A DNA stretch of 64,000 nt, from NCBI RefSeq assembly GCF_900095225.1, contig NZ_LT607414.1:434618-498617 (forward strand). Direction: 5' to 3'. The position numbers and the translations under genes were made by a program. This document shows positions 952 to 23,055 of this stretch, piece after piece. The notes below the pieces were generated by a model, which was given only the letters and a program-made list of their open reading frames with translations, was not told where the DNA came from and did no database searches. This DNA comes from Pseudomonas sp. UMAB-08 (GTDB taxonomy: Bacteria; Pseudomonadota; Gammaproteobacteria; Pseudomonadales; Pseudomonadaceae). The number at the start of each line of letters is the position of its first letter. Within the stretch, counting starts at the first letter, position 1.

Positions 952-1971
952 TCAGCGCTTGAGAAGGTCCAGCGCGACGTCGACAATCATGTCTTCCTGG
1001 CCGCCGACCATCCGGCGTTTGCCCAGCTCGACGAGGATGTCGAGGGTCTTCAGGCCATATTTGGCGGCGGCGACTTCGGCGTGGCGCAGGAAGCTCGAAT
1101 AGACCCCGGCATAGCCCAGCGCCAAGGTCTCGCGATCAACCCGCACCGGACGATCCTGCAACGGACGCACGATGTCATCGGCGGCGTCCATCAGCGTGTA
1201 AAGGTCGGTGCCGTGGTTCCAGCCCAAGCGCTCGGCCGCCGCGATGAACACTTCCAGCGGCGCGTTACCGGCGCCCGCGCCCATACCCGCCAGGCTGGCG
1301 TCGATGCGGTCGCAACCTTCCTCAACGGCCGTGATCGAGTTGGCCACCCCGAGGCTCAGGTTGTGGTGGGCGTGCATGCCGGTTTCGGTTTCGGGCTTGA
1401 GCACAGCCTTGAACGCACGGAAGCGGTCGCGGATGTCCTGCATGTTCATCGCGCCGCCGGAGTCGGCCATGTACACGCAGGTCGCGCCATAGCTTTCCAT
1501 CAGCTTGGCCTGCGCGGCCAGTTGTTCAGCCGGGATCATGTGGCTCATCATCAAAAAGCCGACCGTGTCCATACCCAGCTCGCGGGCGTATTCGATGTGC
1601 TGTTTCGAGACGTCCGCTTCGGTGCAATGGGTGGCGATGCGCACTACGCGGGCACCGGCGTTGTAGGCGGCTTTCAGGTCGTGCACCGTGCCAATACCGG
1701 GCAACAACAAGGTGGTGATTTTGGCGTGACTGATCACATCGGCGGCCGCTTCGATCCACTCCAGGTCGGTGTGGGCCGCAAAGCCATAGTTGAAACTTGA
1801 GCCTTGCAGACCGTCGCCATGGGCGACTTCGATACTGTCGACCTTGGCCTTGTCCAGGGCGCGGGCAATGTCCTGGACGTTCTGGATCGAGTATTGGTGG
1901 CGGATGGCATGGCTGCCGTCGCGCAGGGTGACATCGGAGATGTACAGTTTTTTACCGGGATTAAAACTCAT
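952..1971 (-). CDS. dmpG: 4-hydroxy-2-oxovalerate aldolase
   Basis: This class II aldolase splits 4-hydroxy-2-oxoacids into pyruvate and an aldehyde, the last carbon-carbon cleavage of the meta pathway. At 339 aa it has the family length. The N-terminal motif [13 protein letters not shown] carries the arginine and aspartate of the active site, and [14 protein letters not shown] gives the metal-binding His pair. The C-terminal part (about 290-339) is the communication domain that docks acetaldehyde dehydrogenase and channels the aldehyde. It is the last gene of the cluster, 11 bases after the dehydrogenase, with an AAGGAG ribosome site. Symbol by analogy with the dmp/xyl lower pathway. Confidence 0.96.
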
Positions 1972-1982
1972 GGCGATTCTCC

Positions 1983-2921
1983 TTAGGCGTTCAGCATCGA
2001 CAGCGCCATGCGCTCGGCGGTGGCCAAGGCCGCGGAGGTCATGATGTCGAGGTTGCCGGCGTAGGCTGGCAGGTAATGGGCGGCGCCTTCGACCTCGAGG
2101 AAGATCGAGGTCTTGAGGCCCGAGAACGTGCCCAGGCCCGGAATCTTCAGCGGTGCGTCTTCAGGAATGACGTCGAACTGCACCTTTTGCTTGAGTCGAT
2201 ATCCCGGCACATAGGCTTCTACCGCAGCGGCCATTTCTTCGATGGACGCTTCGATCTCAGCCTGGTCGGCGGCTTCGGACAACACAAACACCGTGTCGCG
2301 CATCATCAGCGGCGGCTCGGCCGGATTCATCACGATGATCGCTTTGCCCTTGCTCGCGCCGCCGATCACTTCGATGGCTTTGGAGGTGGTTTCGGTGAAC
2401 TCGTCAATGTTGGCGCGAGTGCCGGGGCCCGCGGATTTGCTGGCAATCGAGGCGACGATTTCGGCGTAATGCACCTTGGCGATACGCGAGACCGCCGCGA
2501 CCATCGGGATGGTCGCCTGGCCACCGCAGGTGACCATGTTGACGTTGAGCTGGTCGAGGTTCTGCTCAAGGTTGACCACCGGCACGCAGTACGGGCCGAT
2601 GGCGGCCGGGGTCAGGTCAATCAAGCGGATGCCCGGTTTGATCGACCGCAGGAACGCGTCGTTCTTCACATGAGCACCGGCCGAGGTGGCATCGAACACG
2701 AAGTCGATGTCCTTGAATACGTCCATGCGGGTCAGGCCTGCAACGCCTTCATGGGTGATGGCCACGCCCATGCGCTGCGCGCGGGCCAGGCCATCGGAGG
2801 CCAGGTCGATGCCGACCATGACCGCCATTTCCAGGTGTTTTGCATTACGCAGAATCTTGATCATCAGGTCGGTGCCGATGTTGCCGGAACCGACGATGGC
2901 GACTTTGAGTTTTTTGTTCAT
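1983..2921 (-). CDS. dmpF: Acetaldehyde dehydrogenase (acylating)
   Basis: The enzyme converts the aldehyde released by the neighbouring aldolase to acyl-CoA with NAD+. The Rossmann motif [16 protein letters not shown] is at about residues 6-21. The catalytic cysteine lies in [10 protein letters not shown] (about 130). Length is 312 aa, normal for the DmpF/BphJ/MhpF family. The reading frame stays open 47 codons further upstream, but the conserved protein starts at [11 protein letters not shown], so that ATG was chosen. It is followed at once by the aldolase gene, as expected for partners that form a channelling complex. Confidence 0.96.
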
Positions 2922-2976
2922 GACATAGCTCCAGCCGTGCATGACAGGCCGGTCAATAGGAGCCGGCCCAGAGTGT

Positions 2977-3192
2977 CTAGGGGTTCTTGGCGGTCTTGCG
3001 CAGCACCAGATAAACCCCGATGAAGCCGCTGAGCAGGCCACTGACGAAGCCGCTGATGCCATTGCCCAGCGAGTTATCCAGGATGGTTTGCGGGAACGGC
3101 ACCAGAAATTGATTGGCGCAGAAAGCCAGAATGGCAGCGATGATGCCGCCGATGATCCCGGCCAGGATCGATTCTTTAAGTACGAAGCCCAT
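2977..3192 (-). CDS. Small two-helix membrane protein, unknown function
   Basis: I do not recognise this 71-aa protein. Two glycine-rich hydrophobic segments are visible, at about residues 9-27 and 45-65 ([20 protein letters not shown]), joined by a short polar loop, with a basic C-terminus (LRKTAKNP). The start was set at MGFVLKES because a GGAG ribosome site sits about 8 bases upstream. The frame is open 16 codons further. It lies between the hydratase and the acetaldehyde dehydrogenase in the same direction with short gaps, so it is probably co-transcribed. A role at the inner membrane (transport accessory or small scaffold) is conceivable but unsupported. Confidence 0.75.
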
Positions 3193-3253
3193 ACCTTGTC
3201 TCCTTATTGTTTTAGAGGCCGTTTCACGCGCGGCTGCCAAAGGCCCGCCAGCG

Positions 3254-4042
3254 TCAGGTGAAACGCACCGAGCAACTGCCGACGCCGCCGATGGACACCC
3301 GTAGGTTGTCGCCCGCCTTCACCGGTATCATCGGACCGAGTGAGCCGGAGAGGATCACTTCGCCGGCCTTCAGCGACATGCCCAGACGCCCCAAGGTGTT
3401 GGCCAGCCAGGCCACGGCCACCGCAGGCGAACCCATGGTCGCGGCACCTGCCCCGGTGGCGACGATCTCGCCGTTTTTCTCCAGAACCATGCCACACAAC
3501 CCAAGGTCCACATCCTGCACCGGCACCAGCCGGTCACTGAGCACGAAAACCCCGCAAGAGGCGTTGTCCGCCACGGTGTCCTGGATCTTGATCTTCCAGT
3601 CCTGGATACGTGAGTCGACGATCTCGAAACAGACCATCACGCCCTCAGTGGCGCGCAACACGTCAGCGACGGTGATGCCTGGCCCCATCAGGTCGTGCTT
3701 GAGCACGAACGCCAGCTCGCCCTCAGCCTTGGGCTGGATCAACGAGGACGCCGCGATGGCCGCTCCAGAGTTGACGGTCATGGCATCGGTGAGGATGCCG
3801 AAGTCCGGCTGACCGACGCCCAGGAGGTTCATTACCGCCTGGCTGGTCACACCGATTTTCTTGCCGACCACACGCTCGCCATCATTCAGACGCAGGGCCA
3901 TCAGGCGCTGTTGGATCGCATAGGCATGCTCGAGGGTCAGTGCCGGATAACGCTCAGTGAGCGGCGCGATGGCCTCGGCCTTGCGCTGGGCGTTGTACAG
4001 GTCGACGCTGATTTCTTGCAGCAACGAATCGTCAATATTCAT
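3254..4042 (-). CDS. dmpE: 2-hydroxypenta-2,4-dienoate (2-oxopent-4-enoate) hydratase
   Basis: This enzyme adds water to the 2-hydroxydienoate left after hydrolysis of the ring-fission product, giving the 4-hydroxy-2-oxoacid used by the aldolase. It is 262 aa and fits the XylJ/DmpE/MhpD family: GKKIGVTSQAVM near residue 60, the metal-binding acidic motif PKAEGELAFVL near 105, EIVDSRIQDWKIKIQDTVAD near 140, and a GEVILSGSLGPM C-terminal segment. The related 4-oxalocrotonate decarboxylase shares the fold, so the exact substrate is inferred from context: hydrolase, aldolase and acylating dehydrogenase are all adjacent. It follows the FAD monooxygenase by 13 bases. Confidence 0.93.
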   Translation of the reverse strand: MNIDDSLLQEISVDLYNAQRKAEAIAPLTERYPALTLEHAYAIQQRLMALRLNDGERVVGKKIGVTSQAVMNLLGVGQPDFGILTDAMTVNSGAAIAASSLIQPKAEGELAFVLKHDLMGPGITVADVLRATEGVMVCFEIVDSRIQDWKIKIQDTVADNASCGVFVLSDRLVPVQDVDLGLCGMVLEKNGEIVATGAGAATMGSPAVAVAWLANTLGRLGMSLKAGEVILSGSLGPMIPVKAGDNLRVSIGGVGSCSVRFT

Positions 4043-4055
4043 AGGGGACTCCCGC

Positions 4056-5186
4056 TCAAATGGGTTCGCTAAGGGCCAGCAGCGCTCGTTCTACCACCTT
4101 GGTCTGCTCTTCGACTGGCGCCCGCGCCTGCTCCAGACGACCGAGTTCCATTGAGCTATCGGTGACAAGTCGGCAACGCGCCTCGCGGCGTGCCATGAAC
4201 CGAGCGAACGTCTGCTCCACGCTGTCAGCCAGTACCAGCTCTTCGGCCAGGACCAATGCGTCTTCGATGGCCATGCCGGCACCGGAGGCCAGTTGTGGGG
4301 TGGTGGGATGCGCAGAGTCACCCATCAGCAGGACGCGGCCGCGATACCAGGGCGCCGGCAGGCTGAATATCTCCAGAGGGCGGAAGTTGATCGCCGCGTT
4401 ATCCTTCTCGCCGAGCGAGTCGCGGATCTCGGCGAGCGCGCCCCCGTAGCTTGCAAGACGGGTAGCCAGTTCACGGTGGAAGTTCGCCGGTTCGATGAAC
4501 ACCTGAGGGGTACGTTCGAGCAGGAACATGTACATATGGGTAGCCGAGACTGGGGTGAAACCGACCTTGTGCGGCCCACCCAGAAAGTAGGTCCGGCGGT
4601 CGACGCTGGCCGGGCGCTCGAGAAACAATCGCCAGCAGCTCTGGCCGGTGTACTCGGCCTTGGGTGCATCGGGCATGATCAGCCCGCGCACTTTAGAGAA
4701 CACACCGTCAGCGCCCAGTACGATGTCGTACCGGTCACGGCTGCCGTCGCTGAAGGTCACGTCCACGCCGCTGTCATCCTGCTCCAGCGCCTCGACAGTG
4801 AGGCCCAGACGGATCGGCGTGCCTTTGGCGTTTGCGTGCCGAGCGAGGATGCCATGCAGGGTCGGGCGCATGATGCCTCCGCTGCTTGCGGTCGGACTGT
4901 CTGCCGGCATGGGGGTTGCCAGCTTTCTCAGCAGCTCACCCTGGGTGTTGCAGACCTGAATGCCTTCACCGACGTAAGCTTCATCGACCATGTCCGAGTA
5001 GACGCCGAGCTGATGCAAGGCGCGCAGGGTCGGCCCAGTGATGGTTAGCCCGGCCCCCAGCGCGCCCCAGTTCGGGTTGATGTCGATCATGTCGACGTCG
5101 ATACCGATGCGCCGTAAGGTGATGGCGGCAGACATTCCGGCGGTGCCGGCGCCAACTATCAACGCTTTTTTTACTGTCTTGGGCAT
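4056..5186 (-). CDS. FAD-dependent aromatic-ring monooxygenase (group A)
   Basis: A 376-aa flavoprotein of the PHBH/salicylate-hydroxylase superfamily. The dinucleotide motif IVGAGTAGMSAAI is at about residues 9-21, the DG motif in VLGADGVFSKVRG near 160, and the GD motif GDSAHPTTPQLASGAGMAIE near 290. Such enzymes hydroxylate a phenolic or carboxylated ring with NAD(P)H and O2. The start at MPKTVKKALIVG puts the FAD motif close to the N-terminus as usual. An AAGGAA ribosome site and an A-rich AACAACAA tract precede it. Its place next to the meta-cleavage genes suggests an alternative route to a catechol, but the substrate is unknown. Confidence 0.9.
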   Translation of the reverse strand: MPKTVKKALIVGAGTAGMSAAITLRRIGIDVDMIDINPNWGALGAGLTITGPTLRALHQLGVYSDMVDEAYVGEGIQVCNTQGELLRKLATPMPADSPTASSGGIMRPTLHGILARHANAKGTPIRLGLTVEALEQDDSGVDVTFSDGSRDRYDIVLGADGVFSKVRGLIMPDAPKAEYTGQSCWRLFLERPASVDRRTYFLGGPHKVGFTPVSATHMYMFLLERTPQVFIEPANFHRELATRLASYGGALAEIRDSLGEKDNAAINFRPLEIFSLPAPWYRGRVLLMGDSAHPTTPQLASGAGMAIEDALVLAEELVLADSVEQTFARFMARREARCRLVTDSSMELGRLEQARAPVEEQTKVVERALLALSEPI

Positions 5187-5244: not shown

Positions 5245-6075
5245 TCAGTCGGCCTTGAGGAAATTCGTCACCAACTGGCAGAAGGCGGCGGCGTGCTCGA
5301 TCTGGGTCCAGTGACCACAGCGCCCGAAAATATGCAGTTGGCTGTCGTCGATCCATTGCTGCAGGGTCAGCGAGGTGGAAAGCGGGATCACCTTGTCGTC
5401 ACGGCCGTGAACCAGCAGCGTCTTGTGCCCAATGCCGCGAATCTCGGCCTCGTCATGGGCCATCGCCTCAACCCAGCGCTGGCGCGGTGCAGGGAACATC
5501 GCCGCATAGGCTTCCTGGACCCCGGCGCGCTTGCTCGCCTCGTAACGCATGCGCACCAAGTCGTCGCCGACCAACGTCTGGTCGTAGGCGAATATGCGCA
5601 TGATCGCCCGCATGTTCTCCTGCGTCGGCTCATAGCCCCACACTGCGTCCAGACCTGGGGTGAGTTCAAAAGGCACGCCAACGCTGCCCATCAGGATCAG
5701 CTTGTTGATGCGCTCCGGATGGTGGATAGCCAGGGCCAGGGCCATGGAACCGCCGAACGAGTTGCCGATCACGTTGACCTTCTCGACACCCACGGCATCC
5801 AGAAAGGCGACCATCTGATCCAGCCAGAGCTGGCGTGAGTAAACGATCTCCTGCGGCGTCTCGGTGAAACCGAACCCGGCCAGATCGGGCGCCAGCAGGC
5901 GGAAATCGTTCTTGAGGCTCTGAATGCTCAGGCGCCAGTTGGCCCAGGCACTGACGCCAGGCCCAGAGCCGTGCAGCAGCAGCACAGGCTCACCGCTGCC
6001 GACGTCGTGGTAATTGGTCACGATTGAACCGGTCTGAATGCTCTGACCGATTTCGGGATTTTGTAGGCTATTCAT
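5245..6075 (-). CDS. Meta-cleavage product hydrolase (alpha/beta hydrolase)
   Basis: This 276-aa hydrolase belongs to the DmpD/XylF/TodF/CumD group, which cleaves the yellow ring-fission product of extradiol dioxygenases to a 2-hydroxydienoate and an acid. The oxyanion segment LLLHGSGPGVSAW is at about 32-44. The nucleophile elbow GNSFGGS places Ser106, and Asp226/227 (HGRDDKVIP) and His255 (GHWTQIEH) complete the triad. The frame is open 26 codons upstream, but MNSLQNPEIG fits the family start and avoids overlap with the preceding gene. The product goes straight to the hydratase encoded two genes downstream. Confidence 0.93.
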   Translation of the reverse strand: MNSLQNPEIGQSIQTGSIVTNYHDVGSGEPVLLLHGSGPGVSAWANWRLSIQSLKNDFRLLAPDLAGFGFTETPQEIVYSRQLWLDQMVAFLDAVGVEKVNVIGNSFGGSMALALAIHHPERINKLILMGSVGVPFELTPGLDAVWGYEPTQENMRAIMRIFAYDQTLVGDDLVRMRYEASKRAGVQEAYAAMFPAPRQRWVEAMAHDEAEIRGIGHKTLLVHGRDDKVIPLSTSLTLQQWIDDSQLHIFGRCGHWTQIEHAAAFCQLVTNFLKAD

Positions 6076-6091: not shown

Positions 6092-6532
6092 TCAAACGTC
6101 GGCACGCCGCCAGACCAGGCGTGCGCTGCGGGCCTGCGGCGTACCTTCTTCAAGACGCGCGCTCAAGGTCAGCGTGCCGTCGGCATTGACCTCGAAACGG
6201 CGCTTCTGGGCACCACCGATCCAGTTGGGGAACAGGCTGATATCGACCAGGTGCGTAATAACGTCGCCGTGTACCTCGTAGCGGCCGCCATAGGCCAGCA
6301 TGCTGGTGTAGGCATTGGCCTTCTCGGCGTCGCTGGCGTTCCACTGACCGCCGGTTTCGAAGTTCAGCCGCTCGGCTTTAGCGATCATGCAGGCCATGTA
6401 GCCGCCTTCGGTGTACAGGATGAAACCCTGCAAGTGCTCGCCCATCGGCAGCTCGCGGCGGCCGTCGTCGAAGGCCTGTTCCCAGGAAAGAATTTCCCAG
6501 CGACCTACTGGATTAAGGGTGGTTGTCGACAT
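6092..6532 (-). other. Possible internal translation start giving a free lipocalin-like protein
   Basis: Within the fusion gene an ATG (MSTTTLNPVGRW) is preceded by GGAG at 9 bases and lies exactly at the domain boundary. A 146-aa product of normal length for a stand-alone lipocalin-like protein would result. Whether it is used cannot be told from sequence. Confidence 0.4.
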
Positions 6533-7438
6533 GTGGGTTTTCTCCGCTGATAGCTGCGATTCAAGGAAGGCAGTCACGACCTCGTTGTGTTCGGCCGCAC
6601 TCTCGAACTGGGCCCAGTGCCCCGTGTCGCTGGCGCAATGGAAGGTGCCGTTCTGTACCTGACGCGCAATGTGCTCGCCGAGGGCCGGCGGTGTGCGATT
6701 ACGATCACCCCAGTAAACCAGGGTGGGCTGGCTGATCTGCCGGGCCAGTGCGTCGCTCACCAGATGCTTGCGAATGGTGGAACCGGCCAGGTACTCAGCG
6801 ATGAACACCTGCTGCACGGCGGCCAGCGCGGGTTGGCGATAGAGCGCCTGACGTACCATGACCGCTTCATCGGTGAGCCGCTCCGGTCTGGCCAGAATGC
6901 GTGCCATACGGGTGCGCACATTGTCGAAGCTCGGATCGCGCAGCACTTCAAGCGAGCTCGGCAGGTTGCTCGCCCAATCCGGCTCGACATAGCCCTCAAT
7001 CGCGTCTGCGGCCGGCGTGTAACCCATGGTAGTGGTCAGCACCAGTGCATCGACCCGTTCGGGATGACGCAAGGCCAGTTGCATGGCCACCCAGCCGCCC
7101 AGCGACTGCCCTTCGACGAAGGCACTGGCCAGGCCAAGCTGGTCCATCACATCGACCACCTGATCAACCAGATTGGGGATGATTTCGGGGTCGTAGCCCT
7201 CAGTCTGCGACCTGCCATGCCAGAGGAAGTCCATGGCGATGACATGGAAGTGCTTGGCCAACTCGGCAATATTCAGCGCGTAGTTTTCCGCATGGCCGCC
7301 GGTCCCGTGCAAAAGGATCAGCGCCGGGCCTGAGCCTGCCTCGATGATGCGGGTGCGGTACTTGCCTTTGATCTGACGCACCTGGGTGTGCAGCAGCTCT
7401 ATCCAATATGGGGTTTGAAGGGTGTTCGATTCGGACAC
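6092..7438 (-). CDS. Alpha/beta hydrolase fused to a C-terminal lipocalin-like domain
   Basis: A single uninterrupted frame of 448 codons with two modules. Residues 1-300 are an alpha/beta hydrolase: LLHGTGGHAENY near 43, elbow EGQSLGGW with Ser112, Asp245 (WGDRNRTPP), His274 (GHWAQFES). Residues 303-448 form a lipocalin-like domain (VGRWEILSWEQ, then GFILYTEGGYMACMIAK) of the type usually found as a separate ~145-aa protein. The start is a GTG preceded by GAGGAG at 8 bases; upstream codons would run into the dioxygenase gene. A second ATG at codon 303 has its own GGAG 9 bases upstream, so the lipocalin could also be made alone. The substrate is unknown. Confidence 0.85.
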   Translation of the reverse strand: MSESNTLQTPYWIELLHTQVRQIKGKYRTRIIEAGSGPALILLHGTGGHAENYALNIAELAKHFHVIAMDFLWHGRSQTEGYDPEIIPNLVDQVVDVMDQLGLASAFVEGQSLGGWVAMQLALRHPERVDALVLTTTMGYTPAADAIEGYVEPDWASNLPSSLEVLRDPSFDNVRTRMARILARPERLTDEAVMVRQALYRQPALAAVQQVFIAEYLAGSTIRKHLVSDALARQISQPTLVYWGDRNRTPPALGEHIARQVQNGTFHCASDTGHWAQFESAAEHNEVVTAFLESQLSAEKTHMSTTTLNPVGRWEILSWEQAFDDGRRELPMGEHLQGFILYTEGGYMACMIAKAERLNFETGGQWNASDAEKANAYTSMLAYGGRYEVHGDVITHLVDISLFPNWIGGAQKRRFEVNADGTLTLSARLEEGTPQARSARLVWRRADV

Positions 7439-7530: not shown

Positions 7531-8502
7531 TTAGAGCTTCTGTTCCTTGCTTGCGGCAATCGGCCCCTTGAGCGTGCCGTCGGATTTTTCCAGGCCGAAG
7601 GTCCATTCAGAGAAGATGTGCGCGATGGCAGCGAAGTCCTGAGCTTCCCATTCGTCCGTCACGACGTCCTCGTCGGCGGCGTATTCCCAGGAACCGCCGA
7701 ATGGCGTCTGGAAGTACCAGAAGCAGGCCGAGGAAATAGTGTGGCGACCCGGACCGGCGAAGGTCTTCCAGCCCAGCGAGTCGAGATGCTGGCCACCACC
7801 GATGACCTCGTGGATGTCGCGCACCTTGAAGGCCAGATGGTTGAAGCGGGTTCCCGGCACCCGCGCGTTCATGAAGAACACGTGATGATGGTTACCGGAT
7901 GGCGAGCAGCGCATGAACAGACCGCGATTGGCATAGCGGTCGGAAACGATGAAGCCCAAACGTTCAATATAGAACCGCGCGGCCGCGGCCGCGTCGTCCA
8001 CACCGATGGCGATATGGCTGATCTCGCGTGGCATGGCGACCTTGTAGGCCGCTGCGCGGCGGTTGATGCGGGCCGGCTGACCCGGCGCGTTATAACGGGT
8101 CACATCGAAGTGCGACGATTTGCGTTGGGCAATGCGGAAAGCCAGGTTGATTCCCAGGTCGTCGACGCTGTGCAGCACGCCTGCGGCATCGAGCTCGACG
8201 CGGCGATCACGGCCCAGGTCCTCGGCCAGCGCCACGAGGGTGGCCTGATCCTCAACGCCCCAGACGATCTCGCACAAGCCGCTGCCACCGCCAATCGGTG
8301 TGCGCTCAATGCGCGACAGATCAGCAGCGACGACCTGGACTTCCGAGCCGTCGACTGCGCGAAAGAGCTTCACCTCCGGGTCGGCCGAAGGCACATAGGA
8401 AAGCCCCCAGTCGGCAGCGAAACGGCATGCATCGGCAAGATCCTCAACCGCGAACCTGACACACTCGACACCGGTGAAACGAAATGGATTGCCCTTCGTC
8501 AT
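7531..8502 (-). CDS. Type I extradiol ring-cleavage dioxygenase (VOC), copy 2
   Basis: A 323-aa two-domain vicinal-oxygen-chelate dioxygenase that would cleave a catechol next to its hydroxyls. The C-terminal domain shows the 2-His-1-Glu iron site: His in REISHIAIGVDD (about 162), His in TRFNHLAFKV (about 222) and Glu in GGSWEYAADED (about 272). The N-terminal domain (GVECVRFAVEDL) is the non-catalytic repeat. The start MTKGNPFRFTGVE was chosen over an open 35-codon extension because it fits the domain start and follows a GAAGG ribosome site. It begins a segment separated from copy 1 by a terminator and a 318-base gap, so it may have its own promoter. Confidence 0.93.
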   Translation of the reverse strand: MTKGNPFRFTGVECVRFAVEDLADACRFAADWGLSYVPSADPEVKLFRAVDGSEVQVVAADLSRIERTPIGGGSGLCEIVWGVEDQATLVALAEDLGRDRRVELDAAGVLHSVDDLGINLAFRIAQRKSSHFDVTRYNAPGQPARINRRAAAYKVAMPREISHIAIGVDDAAAAARFYIERLGFIVSDRYANRGLFMRCSPSGNHHHVFFMNARVPGTRFNHLAFKVRDIHEVIGGGQHLDSLGWKTFAGPGRHTISSACFWYFQTPFGGSWEYAADEDVVTDEWEAQDFAAIAHIFSEWTFGLEKSDGTLKGPIAASKEQKL

Positions 8503-8516
8503 GATTGCCTTCTCTA

Positions 8517-8524
8517 TTGTTCTT
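8517..8524 (-). promoter_or_regulatory. AAnAAnAA motif before extradiol dioxygenase copy 2
   Basis: AAGAACAA on the minus strand, about 14 bases before the start codon and next to the GAAGG ribosome site, matches the Crc/Hfq target consensus. Functional role inferred. Confidence 0.4.
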
Positions 8525-8603
8525 ATCGTTGTTTCGTTGATTGCTCGCTGAAACTTCGCAAGCAGTACGCGTGCTCCAGGAGCGTTCGCGTATTCATTGA
8601 GCT

Positions 8604-20981: not shown

Positions 20982-22001
20982 TCAGCAGGGGAATCGGCCG
21001 ATCAGGTACTGGCTGTCGTCGTCCGAGGTGCACTCGAGCTTCGACGCTACCAGCCCCTGACGCAGGACCTTCATCAGGCGATCCGGGATACGCCCACCCG
21101 GAGCGCGCAGCGGACCACCATTGAAACCGGCCAGCCAGTCCATGTATTTCCAGTGCGCACGGTTGATGTAGTTGGAACCCGCCATATAGGCACCGGTAGC
21201 CGCGCCCACCGCGCCGCGCGCCGGCTGAATCTGCCAGTGCAGTTGCATGGCCTCTTCCCACTTGCCATTACGGGCGAGGTCAAACATCTTCGGAAAATGG
21301 TTGCCCATCCACTGGGTGTAACTGGTGCCGGAAAACTGCAGGTCCATGAACTTCATCAACGGAATCACGTCGCTTTCGATCGGACAGCTGATGATCACTT
21401 CCTCACCAAAGCGGTGATAGGTCTCGATCAGACCAGCCACATGCGGGAAGCCCTGTTCAGCTTTGATCGCCACGATGTTCGGACAGTCATCGAGAAGACG
21501 ACGGATCAACTCGGGGGACATGCCTTGCGGATGCACCCGCTCGAAGCCCCACAATGGGATAGGAAACAGCATCACAGCCAAGTCGGTGGCGTCGCACACG
21601 CTCTTGGTGTAGTCGTAAATTTCCTGCTCGCTGGTCGGCCAGAAGTTCGACGGATAAGACAGCAGCACGATGTCGGCACCCGCCTTCTCAGCCAGTTTCA
21701 GCGCCTCGATATTCTCGGCCAGGGTGCCAAAGCCGGCGTGAAAGAACAGGCCCAGCTTGTCGCCTGTAGTCTCTTTGGCCCAGGCAGTGAACTGCGCGTT
21801 CTCCTGCGGGGTGATGGCGACTTCGGTACACAGCAATGTGTAGGTGAAGCCAAGGTCCGCGACTTTCTGAATGTCGTGACGGATACCCTGTTCGTTGAGG
21901 TGCTTGAGGTCAGTGCTGTAGCTGGGAATGGTCACCCCAGAGCAGCCCACCAGCATTTCATTGGCCCAGGCACGGGCGTCTTTGCGTTTGTAGTTGGCCA
22001 T
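20982..22001 (-). CDS. DHDPS-family aldolase/lyase
   Basis: A 339-aa member of the dihydrodipicolinate synthase/N-acetylneuraminate lyase superfamily. The Schiff-base lysine is in NIVAIKAEQGFP (about 183). It lacks the standard YN.P tyrosine motif; the equivalent region reads MLFPIPLWGFERVHPQG. It is longer than DapA (about 290 aa), nearer to hydratase-aldolases that split arylidene-pyruvates. With an aldehyde dehydrogenase directly downstream, release of an aldehyde plus pyruvate is a reasonable hypothesis, not shown. The ATG at MANYKRKDARAW follows AAGGAG, with AACAACAATA between. Confidence 0.85.
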   Translation of the reverse strand: MANYKRKDARAWANEMLVGCSGVTIPSYSTDLKHLNEQGIRHDIQKVADLGFTYTLLCTEVAITPQENAQFTAWAKETTGDKLGLFFHAGFGTLAENIEALKLAEKAGADIVLLSYPSNFWPTSEQEIYDYTKSVCDATDLAVMLFPIPLWGFERVHPQGMSPELIRRLLDDCPNIVAIKAEQGFPHVAGLIETYHRFGEEVIISCPIESDVIPLMKFMDLQFSGTSYTQWMGNHFPKMFDLARNGKWEEAMQLHWQIQPARGAVGAATGAYMAGSNYINRAHWKYMDWLAGFNGGPLRAPGGRIPDRLMKVLRQGLVASKLECTSDDDSQYLIGRFPC

Positions 22002-22011
22002 TATTGTTGTT
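22002..22011 (-). promoter_or_regulatory. AAnAAnAA motif between ribosome site and start of the DHDPS-family gene
   Basis: AACAACAATA on the minus strand lies between AAGGAG and the ATG, so a bound Hfq/Crc complex would directly cover the initiation region. Role inferred from the consensus. Confidence 0.5.
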
Positions 22012-22029
22012 CTCCTTGGATAGGGTGGA

Positions 22030-23055
22030 TCAGCGGTCAATCGTCACGATGCCCGCAGGGATGAGTTGGTACCGATTGCTGGAGAGCGCCTCGCGCAGCA
22101 ACATCTCGGCAGTCACGACGTCCTGCAGGGCGCTGCCGACCGATTTGTAGATGACGATGTCGCTGGCTGAACGACGTGCGGGTACCTGGCCGGACACCAC
22201 CGCGGCGAGACTGACGGTCTTGCTCGCCACATCCACGCCGTCACGGGTCGCGACAAGGGAATCACCCGTCTCGTGCAGCACTTCTTCGGGCATGTCGGCG
22301 ATGATCAGGTCGGCACAGGCCATGGCGGCCGAGTCAACTTCGCGCTGTTCCGGCAGCGTGGAGCCAACCGACAGCACCACCATGCCTGGCTGCAGCCATT
22401 CACCCAGCAGCACCGGCGACTCGTCACGACTGCGTGCGGCGCAGATCACGACATCGACACCGTCGATTGCCGCCTGCGCGCTATCGACGACCTCCAACTG
22501 CAGGCCGTGGGATTCGTCAAAGGAAGCGGCGAACTTGGTTCGACTCGCAGGGGTCGGGCTGAATACGCGAGCCAGGGACACTTCGCGCACCGACAACAGC
22601 GCAGTCAGCATGCCCTTGGCGACAGAACCGGAGCCAATCACGCCCACACGCAGGGCGCCCTCGGGAATCACTGCATTAGCAGCCACCACCGCAGTCGCGG
22701 CAGTGCGCAGGTCGGTGATACGGTTGCCGTCTACCAGCGCGGCCAGCTCCATGGTCCGCTGATCAAACAGAGAAATGAGGTAGCTGGCGCGACGAATTTT
22801 TGGTGAGGCGGCAATCAGCTTGCACCCCATGTACTCGCCCGACGGTGAAACCGCACACAGGCTGCGCAACCAGAAGCCCTCACCGCGGGCCATGATGCGC
22901 GGCGGGACCATGGCGTCCTTAATGGGCTTGGCGTAGGCCTCGGTGAGGGCCGCTATAACCTTCGGCCACTTAGCCAGTTCAGCGATGTCCGTGTCCCTGA
23001 TAAAGGGCGTCGAGACTTCAAGCTTTTCAGTGTTTAGGGAATGTGCAACGTCCAT
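22030..23055 (-). CDS. Ornithine cyclodeaminase / mu-crystallin family protein
   Basis: A 341-aa protein with the family layout: N-terminal PPRIMARGEGFWLRSLCAVS, the GCKLIAASPKIR segment with the substrate-binding lysine, RTAATAVVAANAVIPEGALR, and the NAD(P) motif RVGVIGSGSVAKGM (about 141-154). Family members include ornithine cyclodeaminase, alanine dehydrogenase and ketimine/pyrroline-2-carboxylate reductases. Its presence at the head of a ring-degradation cluster is odd. An imine reductase or oxidoreductase role on a nitrogen-containing or keto intermediate is possible. It is the first gene after promoter element A and is divergent from the GntR regulator. Confidence 0.85.
   Translation of the reverse strand: MDVAHSLNTEKLEVSTPFIRDTDIAELAKWPKVIAALTEAYAKPIKDAMVPPRIMARGEGFWLRSLCAVSPSGEYMGCKLIAASPKIRRASYLISLFDQRTMELAALVDGNRITDLRTAATAVVAANAVIPEGALRVGVIGSGSVAKGMLTALLSVREVSLARVFSPTPASRTKFAASFDESHGLQLEVVDSAQAAIDGVDVVICAARSRDESPVLLGEWLQPGMVVLSVGSTLPEQREVDSAAMACADLIIADMPEEVLHETGDSLVATRDGVDVASKTVSLAAVVSGQVPARRSASDIVIYKSVGSALQDVVTAEMLLREALSSNRYQLIPAGIVTIDR

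Follow-up and report, generated by a model that had tools for sequence, protein, structure and literature searches.

An in-frame fusion of a meta-cleavage-type hydrolase to a lipocalin domain in a Pseudomonas ring-cleavage gene module

One gene, two domains and a start site at their junction

In Pseudomonas sp. UMAB-08 an alpha/beta hydrolase runs without interruption into a lipocalin-like domain, which raises the question of whether this is a genuine two-domain protein and, if so, what a ligand-binding type of barrel might contribute to a hydrolase. The window analysed here is the whole stretch of 64,000 nucleotides around this gene (contig NZ_LT607414.1, positions 434,618 to 498,617), and all coordinates below refer to it. 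The gene (6092..7438, minus strand) is a single open frame read from 7438 to 6092, with 448 codons and zero internal stops, which yields a protein of 448 amino acids from a GTG start (7436..7438) to a TGA stop (6094-6092). The raw frame extends 5' to an ATG at 7606; given that a start there would create an overlap with the VOC gene upstream and that the homologues begin at the GTG, we prefer the latter, which has a GAGGAG just 5' of it with a duplex energy of -9.1 kcal/mol.

The first half of the protein (residues 1-296; 6551..7438) is an alpha/beta hydrolase domain of the meta-cleavage-product hydrolase type, in which residues 38-280 match Abhydrolase_1 (PF00561) over profile positions 1-244 of 245 (E 1.7e-24). 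The second (residues 309-448; 6095..6514) is a Lipocalin_5 domain (PF13924), matched by residues 311-446 over the entire profile (1-142 of 142; E 2.4e-36; 125.2 bits, with the cut-off at 25), and this half is free of a signal peptide. As the two profiles are covered fully or nearly so, both domains are complete. Between them lies a linker (residues 297-308; 6515..6550), whose residues, a single methionine excepted, differ among the fused relatives. Thus, the first-pass annotation, which had read the frame as open through the junction and both the hydrolase and the lipocalin-like domain as complete, was correct on the frame and on the Pfam matches alike. In-frame fusions are also present in six other assemblies; the gene encodes a genuine two-domain protein, each half of which belongs to an already known kind.

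The GGAG-ATG that had been noticed at the junction is likewise present: an internal Shine-Dalgarno-like GGAG (6542..6545, read 6545-6542 on the minus strand; duplex energy -6.6 kcal/mol) is spaced 9 nt from an ATG at codon 303 (6530..6532, read 6532-6530), which aligns with the start codon of the separate lipocalin genes of relatives. Hence, on this alignment, it is best read as a relic, namely the former start site of an ancestral lipocalin gene. The first-pass annotation had gone further in proposing that one gene could yield both the fusion and a free lipocalin. That the two are made in a functional ratio, the free lipocalin from the GGAG-ATG, is possible but, in our estimate, doubtful. The start-like strength of the site stood up, its -6.6 kcal/mol resembling the mean of -6.4 kcal/mol for the real starts in the window. 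The internal ATG, and with it the methionine, is kept in five of the six fused Pseudomonas genes while neighboring residues vary, the GGA core is at the same position in all six, and the fused gene of Massilia niastensis (L013) keeps an AAGGAG-GTG at its junction (codon 305), a second retained internal start site. However, with codon usage taken from the window genes, 15% of synonymous recodings of the junction gave an equal or stronger site, 39 of 196 internal ATGs of window genes have a site at least as strong, and one fused Pseudomonas gene (L009) carries CTG in place of the ATG. The shuffles therefore lend no support to a statistically selected internal start, and it is because of these equally good recodings and the CTG that we treat two products as a possibility rather than a finding. 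The junction start may still be used to give some free lipocalin, and nothing requires it.

The hydrolase half and its conserved module

The sequences of solved structure nearest to the hydrolase half are those of HsaD (E 1.5e-21), CumD and BphD, and a Foldseek search with the whole-protein model returned BphD, HsaD and CumD as the best solved matches. Together with the Pfam match, these relationships place it among the alpha/beta hydrolases of the BphD/HsaD type, none of the NCBIfam equivalog cut-offs being reached (114.9 of 400 bits for HsaD and 80.5 of 462 bits for BphD). With HsaD, BphD, CumD and DxnB2 it shares sequence, predicted fold, the nucleophile serine and a His-Trp motif, as well as a setting with an extradiol dioxygenase and lower meta-pathway genes alongside. 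It differs from them not only in missing the equivalog cut-offs and in its C-terminal lipocalin domain but also in its active site. Ser112 in GQSLGG (7103..7105) aligns with the nucleophile of HsaD, and the catalytic His274 lies in DTGHW (6617..6619), but the canonical position of the catalytic aspartate is held by Asn247 (6698..6700), leaving the Ser-Asp-His triad incomplete. This asparagine, in the motif WG[DEG]xNRTPP, is invariant in all 20 aligned homologues (L009-L028) and in a Rhodococcus relative (L069), the serine and histidine being kept as well. A substitute acid two residues before Asn247 could be ruled out, because the relatives variously have D, E, G or S there. Given the absence of the canonical acid, the chemistry of the fused hydrolase may differ from plain C-C hydrolysis.

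The neighboring genes of the module lie on the same minus strand. Just upstream lies an extradiol-dioxygenase-like VOC gene (VOC_A; 7531..8538), and downstream follow a second alpha/beta hydrolase, HsaD/BphD-like with canonical triad motifs (5245..6075), a FAD-dependent monooxygenase (4056..5186) and, each over its NCBIfam equivalog cut-off, 2-oxopent-4-enoate hydratase, acetaldehyde dehydrogenase and 4-hydroxy-2-oxovalerate aldolase (952..4042), which together make the lower meta-cleavage pathway complete. All 15 relatives compared for it (L009-L023) share the gene order VOC_A, hydrolase, lipocalin, second hydrolase, and in each an FAD monooxygenase is close by. The fused hydrolase is thus of the meta-cleavage-product type by sequence, predicted fold and gene neighbors, with its activity predicted, and of the options earlier suggested for it this evidence favors the C-C hydrolase. 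At the same time, Asn247 suggests that it is something other than a mere duplicate of the neighboring canonical hydrolase.

The region 952-23055 as a whole is a large aromatic-degradation cluster. It also holds an HcaE/HcaF-like pair of ring-hydroxylating oxygenase alpha and beta subunits, two further VOC genes (three in total), an MMPL transporter with BNR, DUF1329 and DUF1302 proteins, and a DHDPS-family gene (20982-22040) with only weak likeness to solved aldolases.

Beyond this module, the hydrolase and the lipocalin each have other associations. In Bradyrhizobium, a gene related to the hydrolase (54%) has neither the lipocalin nor the cluster, and on a Rhodococcus plasmid the same hydrolase type sits beside a canonical hydrolase and a VOC gene, with the lipocalin absent. 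On an alphaproteobacterial plasmid from Pontibrevibacter (L066, 8983-10284), a ring-hydroxylating cluster contains a PF13924 gene followed immediately by an alpha/beta hydrolase gene; this pair has the reverse order of the fusion. In Azoarcus sp. BH72, according to the authors of a regulon study, bphD, bphC and a PF13924 gene form an operon regulated by BphS (PMC6449761). By the gene content given in that paper, this operon too brings together a ring-cleavage hydrolase, an extradiol dioxygenase and a PF13924 protein, there as separate genes under BphS (PMC6449761). The Pontibrevibacter pair and the Azoarcus operon hence indicate that the association of PF13924 with such hydrolases is wider than the fusion family.

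The lipocalin barrel and its possible role

Modeled alone, the lipocalin half is an eight-stranded calycin-type barrel (pLDDT 94.1). Its closest solved structures are Bacteroides lipocalins (4gzv: Z 13.7, rmsd 3.5, 110 residues aligned); none of the solved-structure matches of the barrel names a ligand, and a search of the PDB found no sequence relative of this half. The full-length model (pTM 0.65) shows two domains joined by a linker of low confidence (pLDDT below 50 for residues 299-306) and with no defined interface, so a transfer from pocket to pocket is not visible there. Stand-alone PF13924 proteins resemble the lipocalin of the window in matching the family over their full length well above the gathering score and in having the same barrel fold. 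In contrast to it, most of the PF13924 proteins found across 398 genomes sampled from the phylum lack a hydrolase of this kind within about 1.5 kb, which indicates that the fold serves other roles too. The literature searched contained no characterized PF13924 member, and a search for the function of the family gave only the Azoarcus operon.

The suggestion of the first-pass annotation that a tethered barrel could hold a hydrophobic intermediate is plausible. Given this context, we propose that the barrel holds or reshapes a hydrophobic ring-cleavage product for the hydrolase to which it is tethered, a reading that we consider evenly poised between right and wrong in its steps of binding, conversion and transfer. 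The extradiol dioxygenase encoded just upstream would open the ring, and the barrel, on its flexible linker of about 10 residues, would bind the hydrophobic and reactive enol/keto product. It may favor one tautomer or isomer of this product, and would then hand it to the adjoining Ser112-His274 hydrolase, with the fusion fixing the 1:1 ratio and proximity that neighboring genes had previously given.

Alternatively, the lipocalin half could itself be an enzyme, such as a tautomerase, a cis-trans isomerase or a cyclase, whose substrate would be either the ring-cleavage product or an intermediate that precedes it, so that the fusion would be a bifunctional enzyme for two successive steps. Outside the family core, many polar and aromatic residues of the barrel are conserved (DDGR, GGQWNA, FPNW, QKR and ARLEE), which exceed the needs of a loose carrier; within this module the barrel always adjoins the same hydrolase, and its weak structural matches include catalytic barrels, namely prostaglandin D synthase, the spirocyclase OlmO and NanoLuc. 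However, no set of catalytic residues could be identified, the literature searched held no characterized enzyme of the PF13924 family, and matches to enzymes of the barrel fold that are this weak show no function, which leads us to regard an enzymatic barrel as unlikely. A bolder version would combine these elements: the Ser-His-Asn hydrolase subfamily would need a dedicated barrel that tautomerizes or isomerizes the product prior to hydrolysis, would repeatedly have been fused to it, and would obtain additional free barrel from the internal start. This we consider a long shot.

Recurrent merger of two neighboring genes

The distribution of the fusion bears on whether tethering matters. The same in-frame junction as in the window gene is found in five other Pseudomonas assemblies (L009, L010, L011, L014 and L025), that of L025 coming from a one-contig genome, and Massilia niastensis has an in-frame fusion with a junction different from the Pseudomonas one. 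The fusion thus exists elsewhere, as the first-pass annotation had proposed to check, and its concern that homologues might always be separate genes is not borne out, even though they often are separate and adjacent. In 12 other relatives, namely two Pseudomonas (G241 and G265), Serpens, Stutzerimonas, Massilia cavernae, six Acinetobacter and Acidocella, the homologous hydrolase and lipocalin domains occur in the same order and module as the fusion, but as two adjacent genes separated by a short gap of a few bases or with overlapping stop and start, an ATGA being shared in one case (L027; G241). A further genome (G417) encodes hydrolase and lipocalin proteins that match those from the Stutzerimonas locus exactly. 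In PLSDB no plasmid relative of the whole fusion was found at 80% coverage, nor any by DNA match.

One of the fused Pseudomonas assemblies, Pseudomonas sp. TH10 (L014), has a frameshift 3' of the junction that breaks the lipocalin. Frameshifts affect four of its cluster genes (the oxygenase beta subunit, VOC_A, the lipocalin and the FAD monooxygenase), reflecting either an assembly of poor quality or a decaying pathway, and we therefore counted it for the junction only.

On trees of the hydrolase, of the lipocalin and of both combined, the fused forms are scattered. A topology uniting all of them, from Pseudomonas and Massilia, in one clade was rejected (p-AU 1.3e-6), while one uniting the Pseudomonas fusions alone was borderline (p 0.045). 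A single origin is thereby ruled out, and the fusion must have arisen at least twice. It is an in-frame merger of two adjacent genes that recurs in two lineages. A comparable merger of pathway genes involving an alpha/beta hydrolase is seen in the PcaCD/PcaDC fusions (NCBIfam models so named), but there the partner of the hydrolase is a decarboxylase rather than a lipocalin. Between the fused L025 and the unfused L028, the first 150 columns of the hydrolase are 98% identical and the remainder 78-89%, a pattern that suggests recombination.

Comparison of the window gene with its fused Pseudomonas relatives gave dN/dS values of 0.07-0.11 in the hydrolase half and 0.08-0.17 in the lipocalin half; these low values indicate that each half is under purifying selection and is kept in the fused state. 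A neutral fusion, in which a stop was lost between neighboring genes and the merged protein works like the separate ones with nothing gained by tethering, would fit the alternation of fused and separate forms among close Pseudomonas relatives and the fact that the unfused genes already lie only a few bases apart. Against it are the at least two independent fusions and the retention of the Pseudomonas fused frame across a dS of 0.3-0.9, each half showing a low dN/dS, so that we think it rather improbable. As for a missed frameshift or stop at the junction, which the first-pass annotation had wished to see checked, the genes are indeed separate in the close relatives G241 and G265, but the recurrence of the fusion in six other assemblies, with the same in-frame junction in five of Pseudomonas, including the one-contig genome, and a different one in Massilia, rules out a sequencing or assembly error that merged two separate genes.

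The merger of the same two neighboring genes on at least two occasions ties the barrel to a step of ring-cleavage breakdown, consistent with our preferred reading of a lipocalin serving the tethered hydrolase. Within the widespread PF13924 barrel family, repeated fusion to one hydrolase, inside a ring-cleavage module that is itself conserved, points strongly to the role of this branch. The fusion also flags a hydrolase subfamily in which asparagine replaces the catalytic acid. The role of the barrel thereby becomes testable in the form of a definite question, namely whether a lipocalin holds or converts an unstable intermediate of catabolism on behalf of a C-C hydrolase.
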